The notes under the pieces: generated by a model
The model's database searches: none
What the model was told of the DNA's origin: nothing
Seen by the model: the letters and a program-made list of their open reading frames with translations, nothing else
Shown here: piece by piece, positions 19,602-32,693 of the stretch
Layout of the letters: each line of letters begins with the position of its first letter
Numbering within the stretch: the stretch's first letter is position 1
Program-made: the position numbers and the translations under genes
Source: Balneola sp.
Lineage (GTDB): Bacteria; Bacteroidota; Rhodothermia; Balneolales; Balneolaceae
Assembly: GCA_002696035.1 (NCBI GenBank)
Contig: NZQV01000021.1
Coordinates: 1-64,000 of the forward strand
Reading direction: 5' to 3'
Length of the DNA stretch: 64,000 bases

Positions 19602-20645
19602 TTGACTACCACCTCCGAACATCTTAAACAGCCGCAATCTTTTCTATCCAGAAAGTATCTGATCATTTCCGTTGCACTCAGTATTGCAACAATGGGTGGC
19701 GTTATTTACTGGACCTATACGCCCGGCGTACTTGAACACCTGGCTCCCAAACGATTACCTGGTTTAGTACTTGCACTCGTGGTTTCGCTCTTGCGAGTAT
19801 GGTTTTCTGCAGCTAAGATCCGCTTTCTCTCTGATAGAAAACTCAACTGGATGGCCTCAATTAGAGTAGTGCTGGCCTGGGATTTTACCTCAGCAGTCAC
19901 TCCCTCAACAATTGGCGGAGCTCCGATGGCAACATACGCTATGACCAAAGAAGGATTGAAGTTAGGTGATTCGGGAGCCATTATTTTATACGGGGTATTA
20001 CTTGACCAGATCTGGTTTGCAATGGCTATTCCTATACTTTTATTTGCGGGAATTTTTTATGAAGTGGTTCCTGCCGAGATCGGGTTGGTCGGCGATGTTT
20101 CAATGGGATTACTTTACTTTGGCTTGCTGAGTTACGCAAGCGTGCTGGCCTATGGAGTGTTGGTAAATCCTGCCGCCATTAAAAAAGTAGTAAAGTTTGT
20201 TTTCAAACTTCCATTGCTTCGCCGAATGGGAGACAAGATCGAGGAAGAGGCAGAAAATCTGGAAGAATATGCTCACCGCCTCCGTAAGAAACCCTTTAGT
20301 TTTTTGGTGAAGGCTTTTTTCCTTTCCACAATGTCGTGGCTGGCACGAATTGCACTCCCAACTATTGTTGTGCTCAGTTTACTTCCGGCACCCGAGGTGC
20401 TATCATTTTTAAGAAGTTTAGCCATGAACCTTGCTTTCCTTGTAGTGCCCACTCCGGGCGGAAGTGGTGGAGTTGAAGGTCTTTTTGTTTTATTTCAGGG
20501 ACCGCTCATCGCAAGGGAAGGATTTGTTGGCTTGGCCGTTTTTCTATGGCGGATCATCAGCTACTATATAAGTATCGGATTGGGTATAATGGCCACCACC
20601 TGGTATGTAAATCAACAAGTTGCAGAGATAAAGACACAAAATTGA
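19602..20645 (+). CDS. Flippase-like integral membrane protein (UPF0104/LPG_synthase_TM family)
   Basis: 347 residues with about eight transmembrane helices. The family motif PTPGGSGGVEG lies near residue 290, and the segment TPSTIGGAPMATYAM near 106-120 is also typical. The start is TTG at 19602; it gives a short cytosolic tail before the first helix, and the next ATG would cut into that helix. The family includes the membrane part of lysyl-phosphatidylglycerol synthases and the glycan-biosynthesis protein AglD. Lipid or lipid-linked sugar movement is therefore possible but unproven. The radA ATG begins one base after its stop, so they are cotranscribed. Confidence 0.83.
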   Translation: MTTTSEHLKQPQSFLSRKYLIISVALSIATMGGVIYWTYTPGVLEHLAPKRLPGLVLALVVSLLRVWFSAAKIRFLSDRKLNWMASIRVVLAWDFTSAVTPSTIGGAPMATYAMTKEGLKLGDSGAIILYGVLLDQIWFAMAIPILLFAGIFYEVVPAEIGLVGDVSMGLLYFGLLSYASVLAYGVLVNPAAIKKVVKFVFKLPLLRRMGDKIEEEAENLEEYAHRLRKKPFSFLVKAFFLSTMSWLARIALPTIVVLSLLPAPEVLSFLRSLAMNLAFLVVPTPGGSGGVEGLFVLFQGPLIAREGFVGLAVFLWRIISYYISIGLGIMATTWYVNQQVAEIKTQN

Positions 20646-25151: not shown

Positions 25152-26690
25152 TTATTCTCCACTATCTCTCGAAATTTCCAATACTTTTAGCGTCACGTCA
25201 ATAGAAGATGCAGCACCCATTCTATCAGTTGCTATCACCTTAAAGGTATGTTCTCCCACTTGTCGTTCTGTGGGTGTCCAGCTAAAAACACCTGATCTTT
25301 CATCAATGGAAGCGCCCTCCGGCAGGTCTACACCAATGTATCGAACCAGGGAATTTTGTGGATTTTCGGGGTCAGTGGCGTTGAATTCGATCTCGTACCG
25401 TTCGTTCATGGCAATAGATGTGGAACGAACGGGGCTGAATCTCGGTGGCGAATTAAAAGACCGGACTTCTACAACAAAACGGGTACTGTCGGATTTTCCT
25501 GATGCATTGGATGCCACAATTGTAAAGGGGTAATTCCCAATCTGATTAACGGATGGCTGCCAGAAAAATCCCTGTCCTCTTATCTTGGCATTGTCCACAT
25601 TTGAGCGGTAAGAAAATTCCACATCACGTACCGAACGCTCCCCTTCAAGCTCCAAAGCAAGCAACAATTGTCCGGGATAGGACACTATCTTATTTGGAAT
25701 GGGTTTAATGCTAAACTCAGAATCAGTAACAGTGGAAATTGAAGCAGAATCTACTTTGAATGTTACTTTAGAAATATTGTCGTTTTCAGCGATCCAAAGG
25801 CCATGATCATTACCGGTGATATAATTGCCTGCTTTGGGATCATCTTTCCATATCTCCAACAAGCCATTGGTATCGGTTACCCAAACCCGGCCGGCTTTTG
25901 TTCTGATAAATAGCCGATCCTGCCAGTTATAAATTTGATCGATGGGTTCGTTAGTTGTACCGATCTTCTTTCCCAAGCCGGAAGAACGGATCTCAAAGAT
26001 CTCGCCATTGGCCGTGCTTCCCCAGATCAGTTCTTTGTCAATAAAAAGATCGGTTATAGATCTGCTTAACGGTATGGATGACGAAAACTGCAAAGTAGTA
26101 TCCGGCTGTGTAAAAACGAGAAGGGAAGGAGCATCCGTCAAAACAAAAAGCTGGTTGCCGATGTTTGAGGAACGGACGTCAATAACAGAATTTCCGCCGA
26201 TCTGATTCTGTGCTAAAATCTCAGGATCAGAATCCACGCTTTCGGGGGTATTGAGGGAAATCTTTCCAAGTCCCTCTTGGTCCATAGCAATATATAAGTG
26301 GTCTTTAAGACGGGCGGTAGCTTTGGGTTGAACCGGAAGAACGGTGGAAGAATATACCCCTAAAACAGATGTGGGCTCCAGGACGGTCATTCTGCGAGAG
26401 TCACCAAATAAATAGGCAAAACGGATGTCGGCCATAATGTTATCTCCCCGGCGCTGCATGCCTTTTGAGGTGTAAAGCCATTGCAGGGATTCGCTGTAAG
26501 TTCGAAATACTGCCAGACCATCTTTTTCCGAAAGCACATAAAGATGTGTTGGTGAAGCCTCCATTGTAATCACATCAGGGATTTCCATCAGTTCGGAATA
26601 ATCATGGGAAGGAGTATCCTGGGCGGTGATGGAAAATCCAAAAAACAGGGAGAAAATGTAGAGCAGGGAGGTCTTTAAAATTCTATTCAT
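25152..26690 (-). CDS. Secreted protein: beta-propeller-like region plus two Ig/cadherin-like domains
   Basis: 512 residues with a signal peptide (cleavage near ITAQD, residue ~24). Residues about 40-300 show repeated short beta segments with Trp/Gly turns, like a six- or seven-bladed propeller. About 320-505 contains two dystroglycan/He_PIG-type domains; the second has NATDPENPQNS and GVFSWTPTERQVGEHTF. Such proteins are usually extracellular binding modules. It starts three bases after the epimerase gene stop, so it shares its transcript with that gene and mutY. A direct link among the three is not evident. Confidence 0.75.
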   Translation of the reverse strand: MNRILKTSLLYIFSLFFGFSITAQDTPSHDYSELMEIPDVITMEASPTHLYVLSEKDGLAVFRTYSESLQWLYTSKGMQRRGDNIMADIRFAYLFGDSRRMTVLEPTSVLGVYSSTVLPVQPKATARLKDHLYIAMDQEGLGKISLNTPESVDSDPEILAQNQIGGNSVIDVRSSNIGNQLFVLTDAPSLLVFTQPDTTLQFSSSIPLSRSITDLFIDKELIWGSTANGEIFEIRSSGLGKKIGTTNEPIDQIYNWQDRLFIRTKAGRVWVTDTNGLLEIWKDDPKAGNYITGNDHGLWIAENDNISKVTFKVDSASISTVTDSEFSIKPIPNKIVSYPGQLLLALELEGERSVRDVEFSYRSNVDNAKIRGQGFFWQPSVNQIGNYPFTIVASNASGKSDSTRFVVEVRSFNSPPRFSPVRSTSIAMNERYEIEFNATDPENPQNSLVRYIGVDLPEGASIDERSGVFSWTPTERQVGEHTFKVIATDRMGAASSIDVTLKVLEISRDSGE

Positions 26691-26693
26691 AAA

Positions 26694-27668
26694 CTATAGC
26701 CAGTTGTGCAGTTTATACCAATGTATGGTTCGTGAAATGCCCTCGGCCAGCGAGGTCTGTGGATGATAATTTAATTCATTTTCGGCTTTATCGTTCGAAC
26801 AAGTCCATTCCAGGATAAGCTCGTTCGCTTTTTCTTTGTTGATAACGGGATATACGCCAAATAATGATGCAGTATTCTCAACAACACCGGCCACTTTCCG
26901 AACCCAGTTTGGTTTGATCTTAAGAGGCAGTGTTTTCTTGCCAAGCACACGGTTTGTCACGGCCCGGATCTCGTTCCAGGAATGAGTACCTTCCCCGGAA
27001 ATAAAGTACGTGTGAACGCCGGTATCGGTTTTTTGTGCTGCTTTCAAAATTCCGTTAACCAGATCAGTTACATACACCATGGATACGCGGGGATTGTTCC
27101 CGTCGCCAATGATCGGACAAATGCCATATTTGCAAGCTTTGAAGAAAGAGTAGATCTGATCTTCACGCGGACCATAAACGGCCGGTGGACGAATGATCTT
27201 AATGCTGTCTTTACTTGTTGCGAGGCCATGAATTTTGGCCTCCATCTCTTTTTTGGATTCTCCGTACATACTTTTTGGCTCCATAGGGTCATCCTCTTTT
27301 TTGGGTGAACCGGCGCTGGGTCCGGCTGCAGCCAGAGAAGATAGGATCACTATATTACGAACGCCTTTTTTCTGAGCAAGGCGAACCAAGGTTTCGGTAG
27401 CATCTACGTTAGCTTGAGTGAATTCCTTTTTTGTGGGAGCCTTTACAATCGCAGCGATGTGGAATAATACATCCGCACCTTCTAAGCCTTTCTCCAATGC
27501 TTTGAAATCCTGAAGATTGCCCGATATTTTTTTGAATGCAGTACCGGACAGCCATTTTTCTTTGTTTCGAACGAGGCATCGAACCTCCTCAAAATTACCA
27601 GAAGCGGTAAGTGCTTCTACTAAATGACTTCCAATAAAACCGGTTCCTCCCGTTACAAAGGCTTTCAT
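26694..27668 (-). CDS. NAD-dependent epimerase/dehydratase (extended SDR), candidate ceramide reductase
   Basis: 324 residues. The Rossmann motif is GGTGFIG (7-13). The catalytic set is Ser110/111 (ILSSLAAAG) and Tyr135-x3-Lys139 (YGESKK). It matches the extended SDR family of sugar epimerases, 3-beta-HSD-like and dihydroflavonol reductases. Bacterial CerR, which reduces the 3-keto group of ceramide precursors, belongs to this broad family, and serine palmitoyltransferase lies 2.6 kb away. A role in sphingolipid synthesis is therefore possible (inference). It is divergent from the first glycosyltransferase with a 99-base gap. Confidence 0.85.
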   Translation of the reverse strand: MKAFVTGGTGFIGSHLVEALTASGNFEEVRCLVRNKEKWLSGTAFKKISGNLQDFKALEKGLEGADVLFHIAAIVKAPTKKEFTQANVDATETLVRLAQKKGVRNIVILSSLAAAGPSAGSPKKEDDPMEPKSMYGESKKEMEAKIHGLATSKDSIKIIRPPAVYGPREDQIYSFFKACKYGICPIIGDGNNPRVSMVYVTDLVNGILKAAQKTDTGVHTYFISGEGTHSWNEIRAVTNRVLGKKTLPLKIKPNWVRKVAGVVENTASLFGVYPVINKEKANELILEWTCSNDKAENELNYHPQTSLAEGISRTIHWYKLHNWL

Positions 27669-27767
27669 TAATTTCCTTATATTTGAAGATTGTTTGGAAT
27701 AAAAAAAGAGATAACTGCAAGAATCATCGCAGAGTTGCTAAGATACAAATCTACCCTCTGCTTTTAA

Positions 27768-28934
27768 ATGTTTATGAAAGAATTACGAGTTGCCCTTTTT
27801 ACAGGGAACTACAATCATATTAAAGACGGAGTTTCACTTACCCTAAATAGGTGGGTGAAGTTTTTGGAAGATCAGGGAGTGCCCGTTTTAGTTTTTGGCC
27901 CAACCATCAAAGAACCGGCGCTTGACCATAACGGCCGTTTGGTTTCGCTGCCATCCATCCGGATGCCGGTTTCAGGACGGGGTGAGTACCGTGTTGCTTC
28001 GGGAATTTCACAAAAAGCAGAGCAGGAATTAGAGAATTTTGCCCCAACACTTATTCATATTGCCACCCCAGATCTGGGTGGATTTAGAGCACTTCGATGG
28101 GCTCAGAAAAATGGAGTTCAGATCGTTGGCTCATATCATACTCATTTCACGAGCTACTTAAAATACTATGGACTTACTCCGATCGAGTTCATTGCATGGA
28201 GATATCTGAGCTGGTTCTATAACTCGCTCACTCAGGTGTATGTGCCTTCGAGGTCCATGATCGAAGAACTGGAAGAGCATGGTTTTGATCCCGGAATGAA
28301 GATCTGGGCTCGTGGCGTAAATACCACTTTATTTTCCCCTGAAAAAAGAGATTTGAAATGGCGACGAGAGAACGGCTTTGATGATGATGACATTGTTGTA
28401 ACCTTTGTCTCCCGGTTGGTCTGGGAGAAGGAGTTAGCTACCTATCGGGATGCTGTACAGCGGGTCGCATCCAGAAATAAGAAGGTTAAACCGCTGGTGG
28501 TGGGTGATGGTCCTGCGAAAGCTGAATTACAGGAACAAATGCCGGAAGCACACTACACCGGGTTTTTGGGAGGAGAAGACCTGGCTAAAGCCTACGCAAG
28601 CAGCGATGTATTCCTGTTCCCCTCACACACTGAAACTTTTGGAAATGTGACCCTGGAGGCGATGAGTAGTGGTTTGCCTTGTTTAGTGGCCAATGCTACA
28701 GGAAGTAAATCGCTGGTAGAAGATGGAGTGAATGGAAAACTTGCCATACCGGAAAATTGCACAGATTTCACAAAAAAGTTATCCCTCATCGTAGAGAATA
28801 AAGAGTTACGTAGTAAGATGGGGAAAGCTTCTCGTAAAAAAGCTTTGCAGTATGAATGGGAGGCCATAAATGGAAAATTACTGGAGTATTATAAGGAAGC
28901 GTTGGAAGAGCCGGTTCCAGTCAGACATTATTAA
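27768..28934 (+). CDS. GT4 glycosyltransferase (GT-B fold)
   Basis: 388 residues. The N-terminal half has FTGNYNHIKDGVSLTLNR and GSYHTHFTSYLKYYG, typical of MgtA/SqdX-type GDP-mannose or UDP-sugar transferases that act on lipids. The C-terminal donor site has FPSHTETFGNVTLEAMSSG, with the E-x7-E motif of GT4. It likely adds a sugar to a membrane lipid at the cytoplasmic face. The second glycosyltransferase begins 15 bases after its stop. The position beside serine palmitoyltransferase suggests a sphingolipid acceptor (inference). Confidence 0.9.
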   Translation: MFMKELRVALFTGNYNHIKDGVSLTLNRWVKFLEDQGVPVLVFGPTIKEPALDHNGRLVSLPSIRMPVSGRGEYRVASGISQKAEQELENFAPTLIHIATPDLGGFRALRWAQKNGVQIVGSYHTHFTSYLKYYGLTPIEFIAWRYLSWFYNSLTQVYVPSRSMIEELEEHGFDPGMKIWARGVNTTLFSPEKRDLKWRRENGFDDDDIVVTFVSRLVWEKELATYRDAVQRVASRNKKVKPLVVGDGPAKAELQEQMPEAHYTGFLGGEDLAKAYASSDVFLFPSHTETFGNVTLEAMSSGLPCLVANATGSKSLVEDGVNGKLAIPENCTDFTKKLSLIVENKELRSKMGKASRKKALQYEWEAINGKLLEYYKEALEEPVPVRHY

Positions 28935-28949
28935 AACAACGATTTTTAC

Positions 28950-30119
28950 ATGAAGATTATAGACGTAGCAGAGTTTTATACCGATCAGGGTGGAGGGGTG
29001 AAAACCTACATCAATCAAAAGCTGCAGGCCGGGCAAAAATATGGGCATGAAATTGTGATCGTAGCTCCAGGTGAGGATTGGGGAGAGGAAGAGCGATATG
29101 GCGGACGCGTGATCTGGGTGAAAGGCCCAAGGTTACCGGTTGACTGGCGCTACTACATATTATGGAGGGAAAAAGCCGTCCATGAAATTTTAGATCGCGA
29201 GCAACCTGATGTGGTAGAAGGATCTTCACCATGGACCGGTGGATGGTTTGCAGCCCGCTGGAACGGGGATGCGGTGAAAACATTTATTTTTCATCAGGAC
29301 CCGGTAGCGGCATATCCCCACACAATTCTGGGCACCAAATTGGGCTTTGATCGCGTAGATAAAATGTTTGGTTTCTATTGGAATTACCTGAAGAAACTAA
29401 GCAATCGCTTTGATGCCACCATAGTAAGTGGTGAATGGCTGGGTGAGCGTATTCAGAGCCATGGCGTCAATAATCCAATTGCCGTTCCATTTGGGATAGA
29501 TAAGGAATTCTTCTCCCCAAAAAGAAGAAATGAGGAAACCCGCAAAAAATTACTGGCTCAATTTGATCTGCCAGAGACCGCTAATTTGATGATAGCGATC
29601 AGTCGGCATCATCCCGAAAAGAGACTGGGATCGCTGATCGAAGGGTTTGATGCAGCCTCAAAAGAGAAGCCAATGGGATTGATCGTTTTTGGGGACGGAC
29701 CGTTACGAAAATATGTGGAGTACAAGGCAAATAAAGCTCCTTATGTAAAGCTGATGGGATTCACAGAAAACAGGGATGAACTTGCCAATATTCTGGCATC
29801 CTGTGATTACTTTGTCCATTCATCTTCTGCTGAAACGTATGGAATTGTGGTTGCAGAAGCAGTATGCAGCGGACTTCCCATTGTGGTTCCAAATCGCGGG
29901 GGAGCCGACGATATTGCTAAACCGGAGATTTCAGAAACATTTCGTCCGGGGGATCCTGAGATGCTGAAGGAGGCTATTTTAAGGATCTTGTCGAGAGATC
30001 GTGATGAGCTTGTGCAAGAGTGTAAGAAAGTAGCAGAACAGGAGATAGGAACTATGGATGATCATTTTAAATTGTTGTTCCGGAAATACGAGGAATTAGT
30101 AAACCAGAAAAATAGTTGA
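28950..30119 (+). CDS. GT4 glycosyltransferase (GT-B fold), second
   Basis: 389 residues. It begins MKIIDVAEFYTDQGGGVKTY; the GGGVxTY loop is common in GT4 acceptor domains. The donor site has SSSAETYGIVVAEAVCSG with the E-x7-E motif, followed by VPNRGGADDI. It is not a close copy of the preceding GT4, so two different sugar transfers are likely. It belongs to the same plus-strand unit (15-base gap). The next gene, serine palmitoyltransferase, has its own promoter. Confidence 0.9.
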   Translation: MKIIDVAEFYTDQGGGVKTYINQKLQAGQKYGHEIVIVAPGEDWGEEERYGGRVIWVKGPRLPVDWRYYILWREKAVHEILDREQPDVVEGSSPWTGGWFAARWNGDAVKTFIFHQDPVAAYPHTILGTKLGFDRVDKMFGFYWNYLKKLSNRFDATIVSGEWLGERIQSHGVNNPIAVPFGIDKEFFSPKRRNEETRKKLLAQFDLPETANLMIAISRHHPEKRLGSLIEGFDAASKEKPMGLIVFGDGPLRKYVEYKANKAPYVKLMGFTENRDELANILASCDYFVHSSSAETYGIVVAEAVCSGLPIVVPNRGGADDIAKPEISETFRPGDPEMLKEAILRILSRDRDELVQECKKVAEQEIGTMDDHFKLLFRKYEELVNQKNS

Positions 30120-30232
30120 TCACGTAAAATTGGGAATTCAAATTCAGTAGCTGAGCTATAAATTTGTTATCTTAGCCAATTGAAATTAAAACCGCATTGC
30201 AGCAGCCGGCAGTTAAAGCTTATTTATAGTAA

Positions 30233-30263
30233 TTTGTTAGAACGTTAATACCTGCTATATTTC
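30233..30263 (+). promoter_or_regulatory. Promoter of serine palmitoyltransferase
   Basis: TTTG (30233-30236), exactly 19 bases, then TATATTTC (30256-30263). This differs from TTTG-N19-TAnnTTTG in one base. It sits about 36 bases before the ATG at 30300 and has the same geometry as the rplU promoter. Confidence 0.55.
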
Positions 30264-30299
30264 GCTGTTTATTTACAATACTTGTTAAGGAATTACCGA

Positions 30300-31541
30300 A
30301 TGGCCGATAAGAAATCAAGCGCCACAAAATCAGATATTTTTTCAAAAGCTTTCAATTTTACGAAAGCCGATGAGGTCAAGGAATTAGGGTTATATCCCTA
30401 CTTCAAACCACTGGAAGCTACCGATGGCACTATCGTAGAAATTGAAGGTAAAAAAGTGATCATGGCGGGCTCCAATAATTACCTGGGGCTCACCAACGAT
30501 CCACGCACCATCAAAGCCGCACAAGAGGCGCTAACCAAATATGGTACAGGGTGCACAGGTTCACGCTACTTGAATGGTACGTTAGACAGTCACCTGGAAC
30601 TGGAAGATAAGCTCGCCGAGTTTATGGGAAAAGAAGGGTGCGTGCTTTTTAGTACGGGCTATCAAACCAATGAAGGTTCTATACAAACCATTGCTGGCCG
30701 TAACGACATTATTTTCTCTGATAAGGATAATCATGCCTGTATTGTAATGGGAACCTTGGTTTCGAATGCAAAAACCATGCGTTATCAGCATAACGATATG
30801 GGTCAACTTCGAAAATTGTTGGAGCGAGCCGATCCGGATGCCGGAAAGATCATTGTAACCGATGGAGTCTTTTCAATGTCAGGAACGCTCGCAAATGTAC
30901 CTGAGCTGGTTAAACTGGCCAAAGAATTTGATGCCCGTCTTTATTTGGATGATGCCCATGCCGTTGGTGTTGTCGGGAAAGGTGGACGCGGATCGGCTTC
31001 TGTATATGACCTGACCGATGAAGTGGATCTGATCAGTGGAACCTTCTCCAAATCATTCGCTTCGCTGGGGGGCTTTTTGGTAGGAGATGAACCGGTGATC
31101 GAATATATCCGGCACAATTCTCCGGCCCATATCTTCAGTGCCTCTATGCCACCGGCAAACGTAGCTACGGTTTTGAAAGCGCTTGAGATCTTGCAGGAAG
31201 AAACCTGGAGACTGGAACGCCTTGATGAGATCGCAAATTATATGCGTAAAGAACTTCGTGGACTCGGTTTCAATGTCTGGAGCAGCCAAAGTCCGATCAT
31301 CCCTGTGGTTATTGGTGAAATGATGGACTGCTTTAAATTCTGGAAAGATCTTTTCGAAGAAGGCGTTTATGCCAATGCCGTTGTGCCACCGGCGGTTCCG
31401 CAAGGACAGTCTTTGCTAAGAACCAGCTACATGGCCAGCCATACGGATGAGCACTTGGATCAGATTCTGGAAGCATTCCGAAAAGTTGGAATCAAGCGTG
31501 GTGTTATTGACAGAAATGGTCATTCAGCGATCGAATCCTAA
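30300..31541 (+). CDS. Serine palmitoyltransferase (alpha-oxoamine synthase)
   Basis: 413 residues from ATG 30300; a TTG 18 bases upstream is also in frame. It is a PLP-dependent alpha-oxoamine synthase. Key residues are the stacking His145 (DKDNHAC), Asp217/218 and His220 (YLDDAHAVGVVG), and the PLP lysine Lys251 (TFSKSFASLGG). The segment GTGCTGSRYLNGTLDSHLELE (in part) and the SPT-like N-terminus (LYPYFKPLEATDGT) resemble bacterial serine palmitoyltransferases more than Kbl, BioF or HemA. It condenses serine with an acyl-CoA or acyl-ACP to 3-ketosphinganine, the first step of sphingolipid synthesis. A GNAT-type gene follows after 27 bases. Confidence 0.88.
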   Translation: MADKKSSATKSDIFSKAFNFTKADEVKELGLYPYFKPLEATDGTIVEIEGKKVIMAGSNNYLGLTNDPRTIKAAQEALTKYGTGCTGSRYLNGTLDSHLELEDKLAEFMGKEGCVLFSTGYQTNEGSIQTIAGRNDIIFSDKDNHACIVMGTLVSNAKTMRYQHNDMGQLRKLLERADPDAGKIIVTDGVFSMSGTLANVPELVKLAKEFDARLYLDDAHAVGVVGKGGRGSASVYDLTDEVDLISGTFSKSFASLGGFLVGDEPVIEYIRHNSPAHIFSASMPPANVATVLKALEILQEETWRLERLDEIANYMRKELRGLGFNVWSSQSPIIPVVIGEMMDCFKFWKDLFEEGVYANAVVPPAVPQGQSLLRTSYMASHTDEHLDQILEAFRKVGIKRGVIDRNGHSAIES

Positions 31542-31568
31542 AATTTTCTTCATTCATTCCATCTGCCT

Positions 31569-32693
31569 ATGAATAGCTCAGGGGTAACTGTTGTATCTAC
31601 CAAAGAGGAAAAAAAGCGTTTCGTAGACTTCATCTATTCTTTTTATGAACAGGCAGAAAATTGGGTTCCTCCACTTCGGATGGACCAGAAAAAGCTGATC
31701 GATACGGATAAAAATCCCTTCTACAACAATGCGGAGATCGAGCTTTTTATTGCTGAGAAAGACGGGAAAGAGGTAGGACGTATAGCGGCAATCATTGACC
31801 ATCGGTATAATGATTATCATGGCTCGAAAACAGGACATTTTGGCTTTTTCGAATGCATTGACGATCAGCATACCGCAAATTTAATGTTCAGGGTAGCGGA
31901 GGATTGGCTTCGCGATAAGGGGATGAAAGACGTACTGGGACCTGCTAATCCCGGAATGATGGATGTGATTGGAGTTCTGATCGAAGGCTTTGATAAAGCT
32001 CCCTACATCCTGATGCCGTACAATTTTCCCTATTATGATCGCCTGATAAAAGATGCGGGTTTCGAAAAAGCCATGGACATGTACGCCTACATTGTGGATA
32101 CAGAAACGGTGGCTGTTGATCGAATGAATCGTGCAATGGAGATCGTAAAACGTCGTATTCCAAACCTGGAAATACGTCCTGTGAACTTAAAAAAAATGAG
32201 TTCAGAGATTAAGATCATTCAGGAAATATTTAATGCAACCTGGAAGAATAATTGGGGATTTATTCCTTTGAGTGAAGAAGAATTCAAAGCACTTGGGAAG
32301 GATCTGAAACTCATTATTGATACCGATTACGCCCATATTGCTGAAATAGATGGAGAGCCGATCGCTTTTTCTGTGGGCCTGCCAAACATCAACGAGATCC
32401 TCATAGATATGAACGGAAAGCTTTTTCCTTTTGGGATCTTCAAACTGCTGTGGCGCAAGAATAAAGTAAAAGGACTAAGAACGGCCTTGATGGGCGTTCT
32501 ACCGGAATGGCAGGGCAAGGGAATAGATGCACTGCTTCATCAACGCTCCATACAAAATGGATTGGAGACTGAAGGTAAAACCGTTTCTGAACTCAGCTGG
32601 ATCTTAGAAACCAATACGGAAATGATTCGCGTGGCTGAAAAAATTGGCGGTTCTCTCGATAAAACTTATCGAATGTATTCGAAGCAACTATAA
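31569..32693 (+). CDS. GNAT-superfamily acyltransferase next to SPT, candidate bacterial ceramide synthase
   Basis: 374 residues, about twice a simple GNAT. The N-terminal part has WVPPLRMDQKKLID and FFECIDDQHTA. The middle has VLGPANPGMMDVIGVLIEGF and YILMPYNFPYYDRLI. A GNAT-like acyl-CoA site, GVLPEWQGKGIDALLH, is near residue 312. Long GNAT proteins of this kind accompany serine palmitoyltransferase, and the bacterial ceramide synthase bCerS described in Caulobacter is a GNAT-type protein. N-acylation of the long-chain base is therefore my preferred role. Homology to bCerS itself was not tested. It shares the SPT transcript (27-base gap). Confidence 0.75.
   Translation: MNSSGVTVVSTKEEKKRFVDFIYSFYEQAENWVPPLRMDQKKLIDTDKNPFYNNAEIELFIAEKDGKEVGRIAAIIDHRYNDYHGSKTGHFGFFECIDDQHTANLMFRVAEDWLRDKGMKDVLGPANPGMMDVIGVLIEGFDKAPYILMPYNFPYYDRLIKDAGFEKAMDMYAYIVDTETVAVDRMNRAMEIVKRRIPNLEIRPVNLKKMSSEIKIIQEIFNATWKNNWGFIPLSEEEFKALGKDLKLIIDTDYAHIAEIDGEPIAFSVGLPNINEILIDMNGKLFPFGIFKLLWRKNKVKGLRTALMGVLPEWQGKGIDALLHQRSIQNGLETEGKTVSELSWILETNTEMIRVAEKIGGSLDKTYRMYSKQL

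Follow-up and report, generated by a model that had tools for sequence, protein, structure and literature searches.

In Caulobacter crescentus, ceramide is made with three types of enzymes, namely a serine palmitoyltransferase (Spt), the bacterial ceramide synthase bCerS (CC_1154, CCNA_01212) and the ceramide reductase CerR (CC_1164, CCNA_01222) (PMC11324152, PMC11087976). Two neighbouring genes of the same bacterium, sgt1 and sgt2, code for glycosyltransferases that glycosylate ceramide sequentially (PMC6445935). In Bacteroides fragilis, the alpha-galactosylceramide synthase BF9343_3149 belongs to glycosyltransferase family 4 (GT4), a retaining family with known ceramide and diacylglycerol acceptors (PMC9692976). 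Here we describe a locus from Balneola sp. (assembly GCA_002696035.1, contig NZQV01000021.1) that carries the same three enzyme types together with two GT4 genes. It occupies positions 26694-32693 of the stretch of 64,000 nucleotides that was analysed, which we call the window. The trio of serine palmitoyltransferase (SPT), GNAT protein and short-chain dehydrogenase/reductase (SDR) very probably makes ceramide, and we put the probability that the locus as a whole makes glycosylated dihydroceramide at roughly two in three.

All five open reading frames (ORFs) are intact. Pfam and NCBIfam searches place them in the families given by a preliminary description of this DNA, which had listed five such genes within 6 kb; to this we add that the SDR gene lies on the minus strand. 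It is divergent from the first glycosyltransferase gene, GTa, at a distance of about 100 bases, and the other four genes are on the plus strand. GTa and the second glycosyltransferase gene, GTb, are separated by 15 bases, GTb and SPT by about 180 bases, and SPT and GNAT by 27 bases, the last gap being as first described. The base composition of the locus (0.441) matches that of the window (0.444) and thus gives no hint of recent import. A scan for sigma-70 promoters and terminators returned nothing beyond shuffled expectation, and so operon boundaries are not inferred. The genome comprises 3.97 Mb in 27 contigs, with the window on contig 25. It belongs with Balneolaceae, and the closest named relative to emerge from the GNAT scan described below is a Gracilimonas metagenome-assembled genome (L141; 77%) with identical gene order.

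The SPT gene (30300..31541, plus strand) codes for an alpha-oxoamine synthase of the Bacteroidota SPT type. Its ORF opens with a TTG at 30282, and the likely start is the ATG at 30300, which is preceded by AAGGA. Among solved chains searched with phmmer, the SPT of Sphingobacterium multivorum is nearest (417.8 bits), whereas the best chains that are not SPTs score 289 bits (8s1y), 272 (Escherichia coli Kbl), 232 (SulA) and 230 (CFAT). The best NCBIfam model is SerpalmtaseCFB (NF047600), which at 499.7 bits is more than 110 bits above the next model, and the only other strong match to it in the genome scores 290 bits. Radka et al. reported that Lys281, located 30 residues past the lysine that binds pyridoxal phosphate (PLP), separates SulA from Spt, which has alanine there (PMC9304779); we fixed this position using a mutagenic primer given in that paper. 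The window protein carries PLP-Lys257 and, 30 residues further on, Ala287 within the sequence FSASM. Alanine also occupies this position in 54 of the 54 other SPT rows aligned. Together with the score to the S. multivorum enzyme, this upholds the original naming of the gene. An SPT-type aminotransferase is well supported by these sequence features, with L-serine and a long acyl thioester as the predicted substrates.

The GNAT gene (31569..32693, plus strand, 374 aa) is poorly served by general models. Pfam gives a weak match to Acetyltransf_1 (24.5 bits), the NCBIfam search returned nothing, and phmmer against the PDB returned no meaningful match. A tblastn search against plasmids places the protein, which carries the motif QGKGID at 315, in a family annotated as YghO. 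It is 36-42% identical over nearly its full length to GNATs of the SPT loci of Sphingomonas parapaucimobilis and Sphingobacterium. Kinship with bCerS was traced through such SPT-locus GNATs of Alphaproteobacteria and Bacteroidota rather than through CCNA_01212 or BF9343_4218 themselves. In a quick tree with the paralog from the same genome as outgroup, which we treat as supporting evidence only, the window GNAT falls inside the SPT-linked clade with the Sphingomonas protein and apart from the paralog on its long branch. The preliminary description had offered membership among ordinary small-molecule acetyltransferases as an outcome that would speak against its proposal, and the tree instead groups the protein with SPT-linked GNATs. 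The paralog itself is 29% identical and lies on contig 10 (308847-309944) between coaBC-like and lipase-like genes.

The structure search proposed for this protein was carried out with an AlphaFold model (predicted local distance difference test score 91.6, predicted template modelling score 0.90), which has a tandem GNAT architecture. Tandem GNATs are the best matches among solved folds (7q3a; Z 25.3, root-mean-square deviation 3.3 over 304 residues); N-myristoyltransferases follow further down the list, at Z of about 16. No solved bCerS is present in these fold-comparison lists. Thus, the search bore out the tandem-GNAT class and gave no match to a bCerS structure, and the likeness of the predicted model should be read as indicating class, since function does not follow from a common fold.

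Further evidence comes from linkage. GTDB genomes were scanned with the GNAT alignment alone, ignoring neighbouring genes, which yielded 80 loci. An SPT gene is present no more than 1 kb upstream of the GNAT gene in 61 of these, and an SDR gene is present as well in 48, with at least 10 phyla represented. Three Sphingobacterium species (L199, L208, L212) have contiguous SPT, GNAT and SDR genes. Furthermore, three genomes from two families of the same phylum carry in-frame SPT-GNAT fusions about 800 residues long and uninterrupted by stop codons or masked bases (L100:4940-7402, L110:6723-9122 and L111:7001-9394). These fusions provide independent genomic evidence for action of the GNAT on the product of SPT. 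With this linkage, the fusions and the SPT-linked clade, the earlier proposal of a bCerS candidate is strengthened, and the protein is probably the N-acyltransferase of a ceramide pathway.

The SDR gene (26694..27668, minus strand) codes for an extended SDR of 324 aa with matches to Pfam Epimerase/3Beta_HSD. Its catalytic motifs are intact (TGGTGFIG, S110/S111, Y135 and K139), and the S110/S111-Y135-K139 set is conserved over 28 SDRs from SPT loci. Kinship with CerR was judged using the SPT-locus SDRs of three distant lineages, and not the CCNA_01222 sequence itself. When these proteins are searched against the whole genome (E<=1e-5), those of Aureispira (8e-57), Klebsiella (2e-25) and Sphingomonas (5e-22) each match this SDR and nothing else. 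Grouping with sugar epimerases, which had been named in advance as a contrary outcome, is therefore not what was seen, and the earlier suggestion of a CerR candidate gains support from these unique matches. We consider the protein a probable CerR-type reductase of 3-oxo-ceramide or 3-ketosphinganine.

The gene-neighbourhood survey suggested in the preliminary description found the five-gene order retained in all 22 of the Balneolales genomes that were sampled. This conservation, along with recurrence of the trio across phyla, indicates that the locus is not a chance assembly. Elsewhere, a minus-strand SDR gene is commonly followed directly by SPT-GNAT, as in Ignavibacteria, Zixiibacteriota, Gemmatimonadota, KSB1 and others, and Aureispira has the same order. 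Rubrobacter has SPT-GNAT-SDR. The trio of the actinomycete Rubrobacter radiotolerans is on plasmid 1 (L048), with type I-D CRISPR genes before it and an LTA-synthase-family gene after it. In Sphingomonas parapaucimobilis, the GNAT homologue lies in a region with genes for an SDR, acyl carrier protein (ACP), SPT and LptF/LptG. Plasmid records from E. coli (L047), Klebsiella (L045) and Pseudomonas veronii (L046) show yghO opposite a cluster with alpha-oxoamine synthase and SDR genes. ACP and fatty acyl-AMP ligase are annotated in this cluster in E. coli and Klebsiella, and LptF/LptG-like permeases in E. coli. Judging from its gene content, the gammaproteobacterial yghO cluster looks like a ceramide-type lipid locus under uninformative names. 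Among sampled Rhodothermia, SPT-GNAT is present at 9 of 11 loci and GTa is present at none.

What distinguishes Balneolales is the content of the gap between SDR and SPT. GTa (27768..28934, plus strand; Pfam Glycos_transf_1/Glyco_transf_4) and a second GT4-type gene fill it at all 22 of the loci sampled, and at sampled loci outside this order a search with a GT4 profile turned up no comparable gene next to the trio. The glycosyltransferase pair is thus an insertion into the ancestral SDR/SPT gap. Among loci from named Balneolales, GTa is found at 15 of 19, the remaining four being on short contigs, and at two named loci (L145, L149) the space is too small to hold a second glycosyltransferase gene. 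GTa is conserved throughout Balneolales at 47-80%. In the window, the second slot is held by GTb (28950..30119, plus strand; GT4 by Pfam), as it is in all members of the genus (72-83% identical). At 16 other Balneolales loci, spread over several families and many genera, the slot holds a different GT4, which shows no BLAST match to GTb at the threshold applied. The second-slot GT4 of other lineages was not found elsewhere in the window genome, where the best match is 33% over partial length. With GTa fixed and its partner exchanged, the pattern is most simply read as replacement of the second glycosyltransferase by a non-orthologous one. Both enzymes of the window, described at the outset as two different GT4 glycosyltransferases, are GT4 members by Pfam, and each has an intact EX7E motif (GTa, ETFGNVTLE at 289; GTb, ETYGIVVAE at 295).

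Within the family, GTb is present in 10 of 57 genomes, comprising seven of the genus and three others in which it is located elsewhere. In two other Balneolaceae genera, it adjoins genes for an MMPL/HpnN-like lipid transporter and a recO-like protein (L131:2867-6638 and L132:7305-11371). The window genome has a homologue of this transporter on a different contig from GTb (C11:227394-229877).

From the identities, motifs, placement, linkage and fusions of these genes we infer a set of activities and an order of steps. SPT would condense L-serine with an acyl thioester to give 3-ketosphinganine, the tandem GNAT acting as bCerS would N-acylate this product to 3-oxo-ceramide, and the SDR acting as CerR would reduce the ketone to give dihydroceramide. 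GTa might then add a first sugar to dihydroceramide with retention of configuration, and GTb might add a second, after the manner of Caulobacter Sgt1 and Sgt2. The order of acylation and reduction is debated even in Caulobacter. Regarding the proposal that the GT4 enzymes glycosylate ceramide, membership in GT4, position in the locus and lineage restriction agree with it, whereas the acceptor lipid is the weakest part of the model. On balance we favour ceramide as the acceptor of both enzymes, with some reservation.

The most serious alternative is that the trio makes ceramide while GTa and GTb glycosylate another lipid, such as diacylglycerol or phosphatidylglycerol, and owe their place to inherited gene order. 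The best NCBIfam model for both enzymes is GlcN-PG synthase (NF053787; 142 bits for GTa and 159 for GTb, with a cut-off of 480 that neither reaches), and GTa also scores 90 bits with a monoglucosyl-DAG synthase model, again below the cut-off. A flippase-like LPG_synthase_TM membrane protein encoded 7 kb upstream (19602-20645, plus strand), which may be a lipid flippase, matches a GlcN-PG flippase model, but its 45.9 bits are far under the cut-off of 320. The position of GTb next to an MMPL/HpnN-like transporter and away from SPT in two other genera can be read in the same way. In addition, the neighbours of the SDR gene that code for MutY and for an immunoglobulin-like (Ig) domain protein keep their place as strictly as the glycosyltransferase genes do, and fumarase and dehydrogenase neighbours are likewise conserved inside Balneolaceae. 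With unrelated neighbours conserved to the same degree, gene order by itself is no proof that GTa and GTb belong to the pathway. However, the pair is placed exactly between SDR and SPT, where other phyla have no gene, and overall we regard action on another lipid as unlikely, if worth keeping in mind.

Two further readings concern the trio itself. A sulfonolipid (capnine) locus, in which the aminotransferase would use cysteate and not serine, deserves mention because that pathway parallels the sphingolipid pathway and because Salinibacter, a related member of Rhodothermia, makes halocapnines (PMC5167729) and has an SPT-GNAT pair whose SPT is 66% identical. We reject this reading as very improbable, since alanine stands in place of SulA Lys281 both in the window protein and in the aligned rows, and since the score is 417 bits with SPT but 230-232 with the SulA and CFAT chains. 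Slightly less credible still is an arrangement in which SPT alone has a sphingolipid role, with a GNAT that works as an ordinary acetyltransferase and an SDR that serves the glycosyltransferases as a sugar epimerase. Pfam indeed offers nothing beyond Acetyltransf_1 and Epimerase, small-molecule tandem GNATs are the nearest solved folds of the GNAT, and the best-named model of the SDR is a sugar epimerase. Such an arrangement is rejected on the GNAT-SPT linkage across phyla, the SPT-GNAT fusions and the genome-wide searches that return this SDR alone, and SDR-SPT-GNAT loci also exist with no adjoining GT4 detected.

For a locus making glycosylated dihydroceramide, several observations remain on the other side of the balance besides the conserved flanking genes. 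SPT does not reach the curated cut-off of SerpalmtaseCFB (640 bits), and therefore we do not claim it for this narrow equivalog and call it SPT by its other features. The SDR is below every NCBIfam cut-off and has 'hopanoid-associated sugar epimerase' as its best-named model, which is also the best model for the SPT-locus SDRs of Sphingobacterium, Aureispira and Sphingomonas. Its N-terminus starts directly at the nucleotide-binding (Rossmann) motif, whereas CerR of Caulobacter is periplasmic (PMC11087976). A literature search found no paper linking Balneolaceae or Balneolota with sphingolipids.

The lipid records of the group are compatible with the proposal. Polar-lipid tables list unidentified glycolipids in Balneola, Fodinibius, Aliifodinibius and Gracilimonas, and none in Rubricoccus or Rubrivirga (PMC5167729). 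Salinibacter contains glycolipids despite the absence of GTa from the sampled Rhodothermia loci. This distribution agrees with a glycosylceramide model and equally with glycosyl-glycerolipids. We tentatively suggest that Balneolales make a new glycosylceramide class in which the first sugar is fixed by GTa and the second is switched from lineage to lineage by GT4 replacement in one chromosomal slot, located between the genes for the ceramide reductase and SPT, and that these compounds might be the unidentified glycolipids of taxonomy. If the proposal is correct, the little-studied Balneolota would join the makers of glycosphingolipids, and lipids listed only as 'GL' would gain an identity. A single compact locus would then unite all the enzymes of bacterial ceramide synthesis with candidate glycosyltransferases, and exchange of the second-slot GT4 would be a natural experiment on the sugars of ceramide head groups. 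The SPT-GNAT fusions, in turn, bear on the disputed order of acylation and reduction.

The Ig-domain gene mentioned above (25152-26690, minus strand) starts 3 bases after the SDR stop codon on the same strand, and keeps this place at 22 of 22 Balneolales loci. It codes for a protein of 512 aa whose N-terminus is signal-like and whose C-terminal part carries Ig domains. Possibly this protein works with the lipid locus as a partner in the envelope, or else its gene is a mere neighbour.

Ceramide synthesis by such a trio is already known. The new element would be the Balneolales arrangement of two GT4 genes in the SDR/SPT gap, one fixed and one exchangeable, although neither the Balneolota locus nor the fusions are proven to be novel. 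Compared with Caulobacter, to which the window is likened by enzyme type and not by alignment, the locus has two GT4 genes added to the trio, whereas the Caulobacter trio is accompanied by genes for a dedicated ACP, an acyl-ACP synthetase, phospho-ceramide and Lpt-type transport that are lacking from the 6-kb locus. Sphingobacterium, the genus of the nearest solved SPT, has homologues of SPT, GNAT and SDR as in the window, but its SDR gene is downstream on the same strand and there are no GT4 genes, whereas the window SDR is divergent and accompanied by two. The sulfonolipid pathway of Alistipes shares the superfamily of its first-step enzyme, SulA, with the window, and differs in having Lys281 where the window SPT has alanine. 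The glycosyltransferases resemble BF9343_3149 of B. fragilis by family rather than by sequence, and that gene as published is outside any contiguous SPT-bCerS-CerR locus, whereas GTa and GTb are inside one. The proposed sequential action of GTa and GTb resembles that of Sgt1 and Sgt2, as likened by description and not by sequence. However, sgt1 and sgt2 (ccna_00793/00792) are located away from the spt locus of Caulobacter, whereas GTa and GTb lie between the SDR and SPT genes.

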